Made by a program: the position numbers and the translations under genes. Shown piece by piece: positions 34,731-56,819 of a stretch of DNA of 64,000 bases. The notes beneath the pieces were generated by a model. That model ran no database searches. It saw nothing but the letters and a program-made list of their open reading frames with translations, and was not told the DNA's origin. The stretch is taken from positions 62,001 through 126,000 of the forward strand of contig NZ_JASFYM010000003.1 in assembly GCF_030055635.1 (NCBI RefSeq). The letters are read 5' to 3'. The stretch is from Methanothrix sp. GTDB lineage: Archaea; Halobacteriota; Methanosarcinia; Methanotrichales; Methanotrichaceae. The first letter of the stretch is position 1; each line of letters starts with the position of its first letter.

Positions 34731-36152
34731 TCAGCCTTTCAGCATCTCCGGCTTTGGTGAGCTGAAGCCTGAGGTGAAGAGGCTGCCGGTGATGTATGCA
34801 GTGCCTCCACAGATCAGCCCCACGAAGACAGGGTGGATGAGGGTATTCCCGTAGAAGTTCCAGATGACGATGGAGATGAATGACGCGAGAAGGCTTGCCA
34901 CGAAGCCTGCTGAATTGCCCCTGCGCCAGTAGAGCCCGAACACAAGCGGCACAAATACGCAGCATGCGATCACCCCCATGCTTATCGAGACGAGGGGCAC
35001 GATCTGTGAGGGGACGCGTATCGCCGAGACCGCTGCTGTGATGAGTATGACCACCCCAACAAGCCGCGTCAGGCGGAGGACTGTGCTCTCCGAGATCCCG
35101 GGTCGCAGGTAGTGCAGTATGTCCGATGTGAGCGAGGTCGTGGTAACAAGAACTATTGCGCTGATCGTCGACATCGCAGCAGATACCGCGGCAAGGAGAA
35201 CAAGCGCGTCAAACCCGGGCGGCAGGTACGTCCTTGCGAGGAACGGCACCAGGCTGTCCGGATTTTTTATGAACGCACCAAGCTGCTCTCCGCTGAGAAC
35301 ACCATATGCGAGAACGCCGAGCGAGAATATGCATATGGAGTAAACCGCTATGGATACCGGGCCGTAGATGCCTGCGAAGCGCACAACCCTTCTGTCCCTG
35401 GCGGAGAAAATCATTATCAGGAGATCGGGAAGCGCGAGAAGCCCGAGGCTTATGGAGAAAGCCATGCCGAGTGTCCTCTGCCACGGCAGATCGATGCCGT
35501 TCATCGAGGTCACATATGCTGGAATTCTTGACCATATCTCAAAAGCGCCAGAGGTTGAGAGCACGCTTCCGTAAAGCAGCACCGCACCGCCGACCATGAG
35601 CACTCCCTGGAGGAAACCTATCCATATTATTGCAGGGAGGCCGCCGATAGCATAGTATATGGCCACTATGAGCACTGTTAACATCAGACCCTGAATGTAT
35701 GTGACCCCTATCAGCCCCTGAAGGAGCGTGGCGCACCCCTTGAAGATGGGCACCAGGTAGACGGTATACAGCACGAGCATTATGGCGGCCAGCAGGACCT
35801 TCCCCACTGGCGATCTGTACCGCCTCTCCAGAAGCTGCGGTACCGTCTTCGCGTCATACTCCTTTGCTGCCTCCCATATCCTTCCCGCCATCAGCCATGC
35901 TAGGCATGCAAATGCGACATGGAAGAATGCGCAGAAGACCACCCATGGCATCCCTGCGGTGAGGCCATACCCGCCTCCGCCGAGGAAGGATGCCGCGCTG
36001 AAGTAGGCTGCTGTGTATGCCACTCCGATGATCGCAGGTGTGGCGATGTTTCTGTCAGAGAGAACAAAGCCGGAGAAAGTCCCCTGCCGGAGCCTCCAGG
36101 ATAGGAAGAGAATCACAGTCACGTAGGCCAGGAGCAGGATCTGGTTAATCAT
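34731..36152 (-). CDS. Solute:sodium symporter (SSS family)
   Basis: A 473-residue membrane protein with about 13 transmembrane helices. Family signatures are SFLGGGGYGLTAG early, YYAIGGLPAIIWIGFLQG near 165-180 and LVLLAAVSAAMSTISA near 310. It resembles the PanF/ActP branch, which moves small carboxylates with Na+. In an acetoclastic methanogen acetate is a plausible substrate, but this is inference. The ATG follows AGGAGAT and lies inside the last codons of a 31-residue ORF (36145-36240), so the two are translationally coupled. Confidence 0.9.
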   Translation of the reverse strand: MINQILLLAYVTVILFLSWRLRQGTFSGFVLSDRNIATPAIIGVAYTAAYFSAASFLGGGGYGLTAGMPWVVFCAFFHVAFACLAWLMAGRIWEAAKEYDAKTVPQLLERRYRSPVGKVLLAAIMLVLYTVYLVPIFKGCATLLQGLIGVTYIQGLMLTVLIVAIYYAIGGLPAIIWIGFLQGVLMVGGAVLLYGSVLSTSGAFEIWSRIPAYVTSMNGIDLPWQRTLGMAFSISLGLLALPDLLIMIFSARDRRVVRFAGIYGPVSIAVYSICIFSLGVLAYGVLSGEQLGAFIKNPDSLVPFLARTYLPPGFDALVLLAAVSAAMSTISAIVLVTTTSLTSDILHYLRPGISESTVLRLTRLVGVVILITAAVSAIRVPSQIVPLVSISMGVIACCVFVPLVFGLYWRRGNSAGFVASLLASFISIVIWNFYGNTLIHPVFVGLICGGTAYITGSLFTSGFSSPKPEMLKG

Positions 36153-36240
36153 GGTATCTCCTCATGAGCAGAAAGATGGTCACTGTGAGCATGAACACGA
36201 TCGAGATCAGAAGCGCCAGATATGGAACGGGAATAATCAT
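36145..36240 (-). CDS. Tiny membrane protein coupled to the symporter
   Basis: A 31-residue ORF starting MIIPVPYLALLISIVFML and ending LMRRYHD. It is one hydrophobic helix followed by a basic end, so a single-span membrane protein with the C-terminus probably inside. GGGGTGAT lies 5 bp before the ATG, a strong ribosome-binding site. Its last 8 bp overlap the start of the symporter in another frame. Short one-helix proteins encoded directly before SSS symporters are known as accessory subunits in other prokaryotes. Assignment to that group is by position and form only. Confidence 0.75.
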   Translation of the reverse strand: MIIPVPYLALLISIVFMLTVTIFLLMRRYHD

Positions 36241-36478
36241 GCACAATCACCCCGATGAATTCTGCATTCGGCACATGTTTGCAGCACTGTTTGCATTATG
36301 GTTTCCTCCATACATCCATTGCTTTAATGTATGTTTTTGTGCTTTGATGCACTTCCATATTAAAACCCTTCCCTTGAACGAGGTCGCTGGCTCATAAAAA
36401 TCCAGAGGTGGCAGCACCCAGGATGTGGTTGTGAGCTCGAATCACTGAGGTCAGCATGAAATCGATGTCTATCAGCAC
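36241..36478. promoter_or_regulatory. Promoter side of the symporter operon
   Basis: On the minus strand GTTTTAATATGG (about 36355-36366) can act as TATA box, giving a leader of roughly 100 bases. CATACAT (36309-36315) and ATGTATG (36327-36333) form an inverted repeat with an 11-base spacer inside that leader or at its start. It is a possible operator or RNA hairpin. Confidence 0.4.
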
Positions 36479-36808: not shown

Positions 36809-38161
36809 TTGAGATCCAAGATACTGCTCGATGAGGAGGATATCCCGAAGAGATGGTACAATGTGGCCGCAGATATGCCCCGGCCGCTCGACCCGCCGCT
36901 GAATCCGGCAACGCATGAGCCGCTGAAGCCGGAGGACCTCGAGGCGATATTTCCGAAGGCGCTCATAAAGCAGGAGATGAGCACCGAGCGCTGGATAGAC
37001 ATACCTGAGGAGGTGAGGGATGTCTACAGGCTCTGGCGTCCGACGCCTCTGTACAGGGCGGTCAGGCTCGAGAAGGCCCTCAGGACTCCTGCCAGGATCT
37101 ACTACAAGTACGAGGGCGTGAGCCCTGCAGGAAGCCACAAGCCGAACACTGCTGTGCCTCAGGCCTACTACAACATGAAGGAGGGCATAGAGAGGATAGC
37201 CACAGAGACAGGCGCAGGCCAGTGGGGCTCGGCGCTCGCGCTTGCCACCTGCATCTTCGGCTTGAAATGCACGATCTACATGGTCCGCTCGAGCTACGAT
37301 CAGAAGCCATACCGGAGGAGCATGATGCGGGTCTGGGGCGCGGAGTGCTTCCCGAGCCCGAGCAACAGGACGAACGCAGGCAGAAGGATCTTAGAGCAGT
37401 TCCCTGATACGCCTGGCAGCCTGGGGATAGCGATATCAGAAGCTGTTGAGGACGCAGCCACGCATGATGATACGAACTACGCCCTCGGATCTGTTCTGAA
37501 CCACGTGCTTCTCCACCAGACCGTCGAGGGGCTTGAGGTAAAAAAGCAGTTCGAGCTCGTGGACGATTACCCTGACGTGATTTACGGATGCTGTGGCGGT
37601 GGGAGCAACTTCCCGGGAGTCTGCTTCCCATTCATCCCCGACAAGCTCAATGACAGAAAGGAGCTCCGGCTTGTGGCATGCGAGCCGACTGCGTGCCCGA
37701 GCCTCACCAAGGGTCTGTACACATACGACTACGGGGATACAGCCCGCCTGACGCCGCTGCTCAAGATGTACACGCTCGGCCACGACTTCGTCCCGCCGGG
37801 AATACATGCCGGAGGGCTGAGGTACCACGGGGATGCACCACTGCTCTGCAACCTGGTGAACGCTGGAATCATCGAGGCCCAGGCGTTCCGCCAGCGAGAG
37901 GTCTTCGAGGCAGCGACGACCTTCGCCCGCGCGGAGGGCATCGTGCCAGCACCGGAATCTGCACACGCGATCAAGCCCGCGATCGACGAGGCGATCAGGT
38001 GCAGGAAGACCGGAGAGGAGAAGACCCTGCTGATAAACCTGAGCGGCCACGGGCACTTCGATCTCTCTGCGTACGATGCGTACAACGATGGAATCCTCGA
38101 GGATTACGAGTATCCAGAGGAGCTGGTGAGGCAATCGCTTGCCAGGCTGCCGAAGGTGTAG
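36809..38161 (+). CDS. trpB2: Tryptophan synthase beta chain, TrpB2 type
   Basis: A 450-residue PLP enzyme of the longer TrpB2 family, which condenses indole with serine. The PLP lysine lies in GSHKPNTA (about residue 112). The ETGAGQWG motif, the glycine-rich phosphate loop CCGGGSNF and the C-terminal [12 protein letters not shown] are present. TrpB2 lacks the residues that bind TrpA, so it probably works alone, perhaps salvaging indole. The start is TTG with a strong SD. The next gene overlaps its end by 23 bp. Confidence 0.94.
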
Positions 38162-55784: not shown

Positions 55785-56819
55785 TTAAAACTCCTCAGCC
55801 CTTCTGTAGGCTTCAAGGAATGCATCGTTCTGCTCCGGAGTTCCTATGGTGACCCGTATGTGGTGGTTGTCAGAGCCCGGTATTTCCGAGCAGTCCTTTA
55901 CCGATATACCCTCTTTCAGAAGATCCTCGACCAGAGCGCTGGACTCCCTCGAGGTCTCCACGTACAGAAAATTTGCATGCGATGGATGCGCCCTCAGAGA
56001 TCCCGCGACCCTCTCCCTCTCAGCCACGATCTTTTTGACGGCGCTTCTCATGTGGTCTGTATCTCTCAGGGCTGCCACGCCGCCAGCTATCGCAGGAGCG
56101 CTTATCCCGAAAGATGGTGCAGCCCTGTTGTACTGCTCCACCACCCACTCAGGTGCGACCGCATACCCTATTCTGAGCCCTGCCAGGCCGAATGCTTTTG
56201 AGAGCGTCCTTCCGACTATGAGGTTCTCATACCTCTCGACCCAGTCCGCATGGCTCACCCCCGCGAACTCCGCGTAAGCCTCGTCCAGGAAGACCACGGA
56301 GTTTGTACCCTCGAGAACCTCTCTGATCACCTCATCATCTATGAGCCCTCCTGTGGGGTTGTTTGGCGAGCAGATGAATGTGAGGGTCACGCCCTTTGGA
56401 ACATTCCTCAGGTCGTGGCCGAGCACGGGCGTGGCACCACAGAGCCTCGCTGCAAGCTCATAGTATGTGTATGTAGGCACAGGTATGAACACAGATCTGC
56501 CTTTCTCCAGGAAGAGCCTTGAAACAGAATCGATTATGCCATCGAGCCCGGCTCCTGCGATTACGAGATCCTCTGAAACGCCGAGGTACTCAGCAGCAGC
56601 GCTCAGAAACTCATCCTGCGACGGATACCTTCTAAGATCCGCGCGGCTCACTGCCCTTATGACCTCAGGAGAGGGACCATACGGGTTCTCGTTCCTGCTG
56701 AGGAACACGATCCTCTCTGCGGGTATGCCGTAAAGGCGCTCGATATCCATTAAGCTGATCCCGGGATCATCGGGAGTCACGCTCTGCAGCGCATCAACAA
56801 GGAGGTGTCTGTAGACCAT
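55785..56819 (-). CDS. hisC: Histidinol-phosphate aminotransferase
   Basis: A 344-residue class II fold-type I aminotransferase acting in histidine biosynthesis. The PLP lysine is Lys208 in RTLSKAFGLAGLRIGY. NENPYGPSP, SPNNPTGG and FLDEAYAEF are conserved. Related enzymes include cobalamin-pathway CobC-type decarboxylases, but the overall fit is to HisC. The ATG overlaps the upstream rhomboid stop by one base. Confidence 0.9.
   Translation of the reverse strand: MVYRHLLVDALQSVTPDDPGISLMDIERLYGIPAERIVFLSRNENPYGPSPEVIRAVSRADLRRYPSQDEFLSAAAEYLGVSEDLVIAGAGLDGIIDSVSRLFLEKGRSVFIPVPTYTYYELAARLCGATPVLGHDLRNVPKGVTLTFICSPNNPTGGLIDDEVIREVLEGTNSVVFLDEAYAEFAGVSHADWVERYENLIVGRTLSKAFGLAGLRIGYAVAPEWVVEQYNRAAPSFGISAPAIAGGVAALRDTDHMRSAVKKIVAERERVAGSLRAHPSHANFLYVETSRESSALVEDLLKEGISVKDCSEIPGSDNHHIRVTIGTPEQNDAFLEAYRRAEEF

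Follow-up and report, generated by a model that had tools for sequence, protein, structure and literature searches.

Does a reading frame of only 31 codons that runs into the start of a transporter gene encode a protein, and what would such a protein do beside its transporter? The question is raised by a locus in a 64,000-nucleotide stretch of Methanothrix sp. DNA (the window), in which an earlier note had placed an overlooked membrane ORF in front of a sodium:solute symporter (SSS) gene and had proposed that it encodes a needed subunit of the symporter, possibly an acetate carrier. The results presented here indicate a real gene for a 31-aa membrane protein, the product of which is probably a dedicated accessory subunit, similar to MAP17, that packs on the symporter.

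The mini-protein gene occupies 36145..36240, as the earlier note had it, and lies on the minus strand, which the note did not name. It runs from ATG to TAA and encodes a 31-aa protein with one predicted transmembrane helix (MIIPVPYLALLISIVFMLTVTIFLLMRRYHD, minus strand, 36240-36145), carrying the motif P-x-P-Y...M...T...R-[RK]. A Shine-Dalgarno sequence, GGTGAT (36246..36251, minus strand), stands 5 nt upstream of the ATG. The mini-protein stop codon and the symporter start codon (ATG at 36152) share an 8-bp overlap, ATGATTAA (36145..36152, minus strand), and the symporter Shine-Dalgarno sequence, GAGGAGAT (36156..36163, minus strand), is within the mini-ORF. Both the ribosome-binding site of the mini-ORF and the overlap had been pointed out before and are borne out here. 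AlphaFold2, given an alignment of 11 sequences, predicts a single helix over residues 5-30 (mean pLDDT 93.6), in agreement with the one hydrophobic helix noted earlier. No comparable coding was found on the plus strand of the same stretch.

The adjoining gene (34731..36152, minus strand) encodes the symporter, P0003, of 473 aa. Among named loci, its nearest relatives come from Methanothrix/Methanotrichaceae. P0003 is a member of the SSS/SSF family; it scores 155 bits with PF00474 against a cut-off of 22.8, and its predicted structure has the SSS fold. This structure is of moderate confidence (pLDDT 75.6, pTM 0.76), and its closest folds in a Foldseek search are SiaT (E 3.8e-11), vSGLT and human SGLT2. 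Entries of the SGLT2-MAP17 complex rank among the best fold matches.

Conservation of the frame identifies the mini-ORF as a gene. Symporter orthologs were collected from the host's own family and from named assemblies, identical sequences were removed, and loci cut at a contig end (L016, L017 and L045) were left out, leaving 26 distinct own-family loci. Together with 17 loci from a second family, which belongs to the same class, they make up 43 distinct loci. Over 22 codons beginning at the first conserved proline, none of the 43 loci contains a stop or an indel. Loss of the frame in relatives, which the earlier note had named as the result that would speak against its reading, was therefore not found. 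The mini-ORF is present in all 26 distinct own-family loci and, with an 8-bp overlap, before 17 of the 18 second-family orthologs; the 18th symporter (L109, G348:C52) appears to be broken, the match covering residues 70-311 alone, and has a mini-protein profile match beside it. The pN/pS of the mini-ORF is 0.39 in the 26 own-family loci and 0.24 in the 17 second-family loci. Shuffling the column order of the own-family loci gave a mean of 0.89, and none of 200 shuffles was as low as the observed value. The comparison frames ranged from 0.82 to 2.23 on the same strand and from 0.42 to 1.99 on the reverse strand. The genus alone, a weak test with four sequences, gave 0.40 for the mini-ORF versus 0.42 in one reverse frame. 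Residues P4, P6, Y7, L10, M17 and T21 are invariant or nearly so in a 25-row alignment; the C-terminal tail differs among relatives, both in how long it is and in its sequence. Judged from these sequence comparisons, the mini-ORF is a real gene for a membrane protein.

The gene is found where the symporter is found. Among 392 genomes of the phylum, a 31-column profile of the mini-protein matches 27, and 26 of these coincide one for one with the genomes that hold a symporter ortholog (66-100% identity), also 26 in number. The 27th match is weak (E 0.0036), lies inside a 441-aa frame and is spurious. Strong matches occur in 27 of the 50 family genomes and symporter orthologs in 28; the genome with a symporter and no match (G036) is cut by a contig end. 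In every readable locus, the mini-ORF is immediately 5' of the symporter, and where a second, partial symporter copy exists (G026 and G008) a mini-ORF is beside each copy. Across the phylum and family panels, no strong match is without an adjoining symporter gene save in G025, in which the match is on one contig and the symporter on another, where the symporter stands at the contig end, preceded by the last part of the mini-ORF; in G348 the symporter looks broken. The mini-protein gene is beside the symporter wherever the DNA can be read, which makes a small subunit dedicated to this symporter the most likely identity of its product. In the second family, a gene of 118-121 aa also directly follows the symporter in 16 of 17 loci (L092-L107); one member was scanned and had no NCBIfam match.

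Since the mini-ORF lies directly before the symporter gene and overlaps it, both proteins are most likely translated from one mRNA and made together in the membrane. The mini-protein would begin with a short outer end that holds the conserved P-x-P-Y, cross the membrane once as a helix and finish inside the cell with the positive charges of its R-R end, an N-out/C-in orientation predicted by the positive-inside rule. It probably packs against the symporter and stabilizes it or sets its activity, as MAP17, also a single-helix protein, does with human SGLT2, and the symporter may in turn need it. Evolution is faster in the mini-protein (pN/pS of 0.39) than in the symporter (0.19 for codons 1-100), and the mini-protein tail is variable; any contact may thus involve the helix alone. 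From their charge patterns, both proteins seem to start outside the cell, which would make a simple fusion awkward. As read from sequence, the gene, its conserved frame, its overlap and one-to-one co-occurrence with the symporter and its one predicted helix are firm. Frame conservation, co-occurrence and co-location likewise give good support to the earlier description of an overlooked, translationally coupled membrane ORF. The subunit role proposed with it seems the best reading, given that the mini-ORF and the symporter strictly co-occur, side by side, in two families.

Co-occurrence in a two-gene unit is also compatible with a leader peptide acting in cis or with a regulator. As a leader peptide or translational coupler, the mini-ORF would matter through its translation in cis, by drawing ribosomes or the nascent chain to the membrane and by making the start of the symporter gene accessible, and not through a lasting protein. 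The mini-ORF does overlap the symporter start in 42 of the 43 loci, with the symporter Shine-Dalgarno sequence inside it. However, the overlap is not fixed (8 bp in 33 loci, 4 bp in five, 11 bp in four and a 9-bp gap in one), whereas the peptide is; P, P, Y, M, T and R are conserved at the amino-acid level, and pN/pS is low along the helix. A coupler is therefore unlikely. It also seems improbable that the mini-protein is a small regulator, an inhibitor or turnover adaptor of the symporter rather than a subunit required for activity. There is precedent in MgtR (30 aa), MgtU (28 aa) and MgtS (31 aa), tiny proteins reported to act on other transporters (PMC10710835), and the association by itself does not show the sign of an effect. 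The one-to-one pairing at near-fixed spacing, with no strong match lacking an adjoining symporter (G348 and G025 aside), nevertheless suits a dedicated subunit better.

A subunit implies a cargo for the symporter, and acetate had been suggested. ActP and other acetate carriers belong to the SSS family (PMC7746861), and the host family is described as aceticlastic (PMC10598746), both of which favor an acetate carrier with the mini-protein as its subunit. The model scores speak against it. The best curated match of P0003 is PanF, at 153.7 bits and under its cut-off of 328, and the ActP models score lower (TIGR02711, 36.9 bits against the 1099 needed). The symporter is absent from two of the six genus genomes, which are 99% complete. 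A YaaH-type acetate permease (PF01184) is encoded by 37 of the 50 family genomes and by each of the six genus genomes, the two that lack the symporter included. Ady2 and YaaH belong to one family. An Ady2 gene has been named as the putative acetate transporter of Methanosaeta (PMC3349665). In relatives, the neighbors of the symporter are aromatic-acid genes, for indolepyruvate oxidoreductase and phenylacetate-CoA ligase. An acetate carrier was rejected as the main reading on model scores, genome distribution and the YaaH-type permease, and a role for the mini-protein as subunit of such a carrier is very unlikely.

The neighbors in relatives provide a different hint. An IorA-type gene is head-to-head with the symporter in 17 of 42 loci, ten in the own family (L037-L041, L043, L046-L048 and L056) and seven in the second family (L096, L100, L101 and L103-L106), the assignment being to TIGR03336 (713 bits in L038). 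Beyond IorA, part of the own-family loci also have IorB and a PaaK-like fragment, the fragment in four loci. At least ten of the 18 second-family genomes with the symporter have IorA within 20 kb on its contig, and IorA was seen in the locus layouts of three more; among the matches listed, there is none for five of the 18. Each of the 119 genomes examined contains IorA-type matches, and a second copy occurs also where the symporter is absent. In the window's genus, the neighbor of the symporter is not IorA but a TrpB-like PLP enzyme, which in the window is head-to-head at 36809..38161 on the plus strand (NF009057, 750 bits). Methanococcus maripaludis is reported to draw on aryl acids in making its aromatic amino acids (cited in PMC4162585). 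The head-to-head placement with indolepyruvate oxidoreductase genes in relatives hints at aromatic acids, and it is possible, if tentative, that the cargo is an aromatic acid or a related compound, which is more likely than acetate.

That the mini-ORF is a chance frame without function, as its length of just 31 codons would allow, can safely be dismissed given the frame conservation, the low pN/pS, the co-occurrence with the symporter and a control within the window, in which only one of 44 non-overlapping ORFs of at least 150 aa, the symporter ORF itself, has at its start a hydrophobic mini-ORF with a Shine-Dalgarno match of at least 5. Elsewhere in the window, a hydrophobic ORF of 74 aa ends beside a candidate start of the gene at 55785-56819 on the minus strand; it may be the end of a longer ORF that begins further upstream.

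No existing family accounts for the mini-protein. Pfam and NCBIfam scans of 25 members returned no model that recognizes it, and DUF4212/TIGR03647, DUF485, YhdT and DUF3311 were absent from these scans at E<=10. NF045580, the curated NCBIfam model named 'symporter small accessory protein' (cut-off 35 bits), did not match the window ORF or 24 relatives at E<=10, and a search of the genome with NF045580 gave no row at the window ORF. Comparison by hhalign for remote homology to NF045580 gave a local P of 0.46-0.59, against 0.26-0.32 for the reversed control, far below significance. Filing the mini-protein under NF045580 was rejected on these sequence tests. No PDZK1IP1-type family appeared in the family scans or among PDB sequences, and a PDB sequence search with the mini-protein profile produced only weak matches (anoctamin, E 0.13), which were rejected. 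In the open-licence literature, no title or abstract opening was found that describes the mini-protein, and the phrase 'symporter small accessory protein' was not found. The mini-protein is a conserved protein without a family model, and probably another small accessory protein of an SSS symporter.

Other SSS clades have mini-proteins of their own. In the same genome, an SSS gene on another contig (G000:C13) is directly preceded by an NF045580 member (64.7 bits, cut-off 35), and the expected mini-protein is present in 12 of 13 loci of this class (L144-L156). A third type, LFGLPTETLITVTMVPGIIALVLLGWALRWS, is encoded before the SSS gene at C2:117161, with the Shine-Dalgarno sequence GGAGG and a TTG start; in the corresponding locus of the host's own genome (L004) it spans 1367-1462 and overlaps the SSS gene start. 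Mini-ORFs of this type, with the pattern GLPTETF...WALRW, occur in 13 of 17 loci of their class (L004, L157-L162, L164 and L168-L172), and the one member scanned had no NCBIfam match. A fourth type, MIIETVYGASVFLILVGIIIAVRRARRML, with the pattern MI...VY.ASI..M..GF..A.R.ARR (L110-L126 and L173-L184), is found in a more distant family, f8, in which the symporters have 31-36% identity. Sixteen of 17 f8 loci have a mini-ORF, either of this type or, in L114, of another, and the 17th has a profile match. The fourth-type profile matches 30 of the 392 phylum genomes, all within the f8 family, and all 12 matched loci that were fetched, three of them not used in building the profile, contain an SSS relative. 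No IorA was found in the flanks of the f8 loci, which span just ~0.1-1.5 kb. The mini-protein of L114, LGLDPAIGVIYIVNILLIVLWVVFSVANAKRRG, which belongs to the first-branching f8 symporter, resembles NF045580 by eye, and the other f8 mini-proteins are alike; it is possible that the L114 mini-protein is a link between types. No convincing mini-ORF was found in 17 PutP-type SSS loci (L127-L143), in which one candidate had no Shine-Dalgarno sequence and was 53 bp away, and another was a broken symporter's own start.

In a tree of 43 symporters, every mini-protein type maps to a single clade found in 100% of bootstrap trees. The A1-type and f8 symporter clades are placed as sisters (99/92). Both results carry the tree program's long-branch warnings. 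Profile comparison unites the window-type mini-proteins of the own and second families as one family (P 98.95). The same comparison of the four mini-protein families gave no homology signal above reversed-sequence controls, and the argument for a shared function therefore rests on position, size and topology. We tentatively suggest that many archaeal SSS transporters outside the PutP-type clade may have two subunits, with each clade carrying a single-helix mini-subunit of its own that diverges fast and was passed down along with the symporter from an ancient pair (four families or more, of which only one is known here to have a curated model), and that the clade studied here might import aryl acids for reductive carboxylation by IorAB.

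SSS transporters are a standard model for secondary transport, and drawings of them usually show a single chain. If the suggestion is true, the one-chain picture of the superfamily is incomplete in archaea, as it is for SGLT2. If each clade has a tiny partner overlooked in annotation, archaeal SSS transporters purified or heterologously expressed without it may have seemed inactive or unstable for that reason, and transport studies should include the mini-protein. The mini-proteins also add a class of 26-35 residue proteins that default gene calling can miss, and the link to indolepyruvate oxidoreductase genes offers a testable guess at the substrate.

Several known systems can be compared. 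Members of NF045580, with about 33 positions, are like the window mini-protein in size, in having one hydrophobic helix and in being encoded just before an SSS gene, but the window protein does not match the model, gives no clear profile signal and belongs with a different symporter clade. In bacteria, YjcH (DUF485), YhdT, DUF4212 and DUF3311 proteins are small membrane proteins encoded beside SSS genes; they are larger than the mini-protein and have more than one helix. In M. mazei, sORF_05 of the trimethylamine permease operon was detected by Ribo-seq, is reported in the membrane fraction and has been proposed as a permease subunit (PMC11456600). It is likewise an unannotated tiny protein with a hydrophobic helix from a methanogen transporter operon, but it serves another permease, and the likeness is drawn from its description. 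Human MAP17 (PDZK1IP1), the partner of SGLT2 and SGLT1, is a small membrane protein bound to a transporter of the SSS fold, as the mini-protein is presumed to be, although it comes from an unrelated organism and no sequence match was found. MAP17 is encoded apart from its transporter. It is reported to activate and stabilize SGLT2 (PMC12605011). By analogy, MAP17 appears to be the best functional parallel of the mini-protein.
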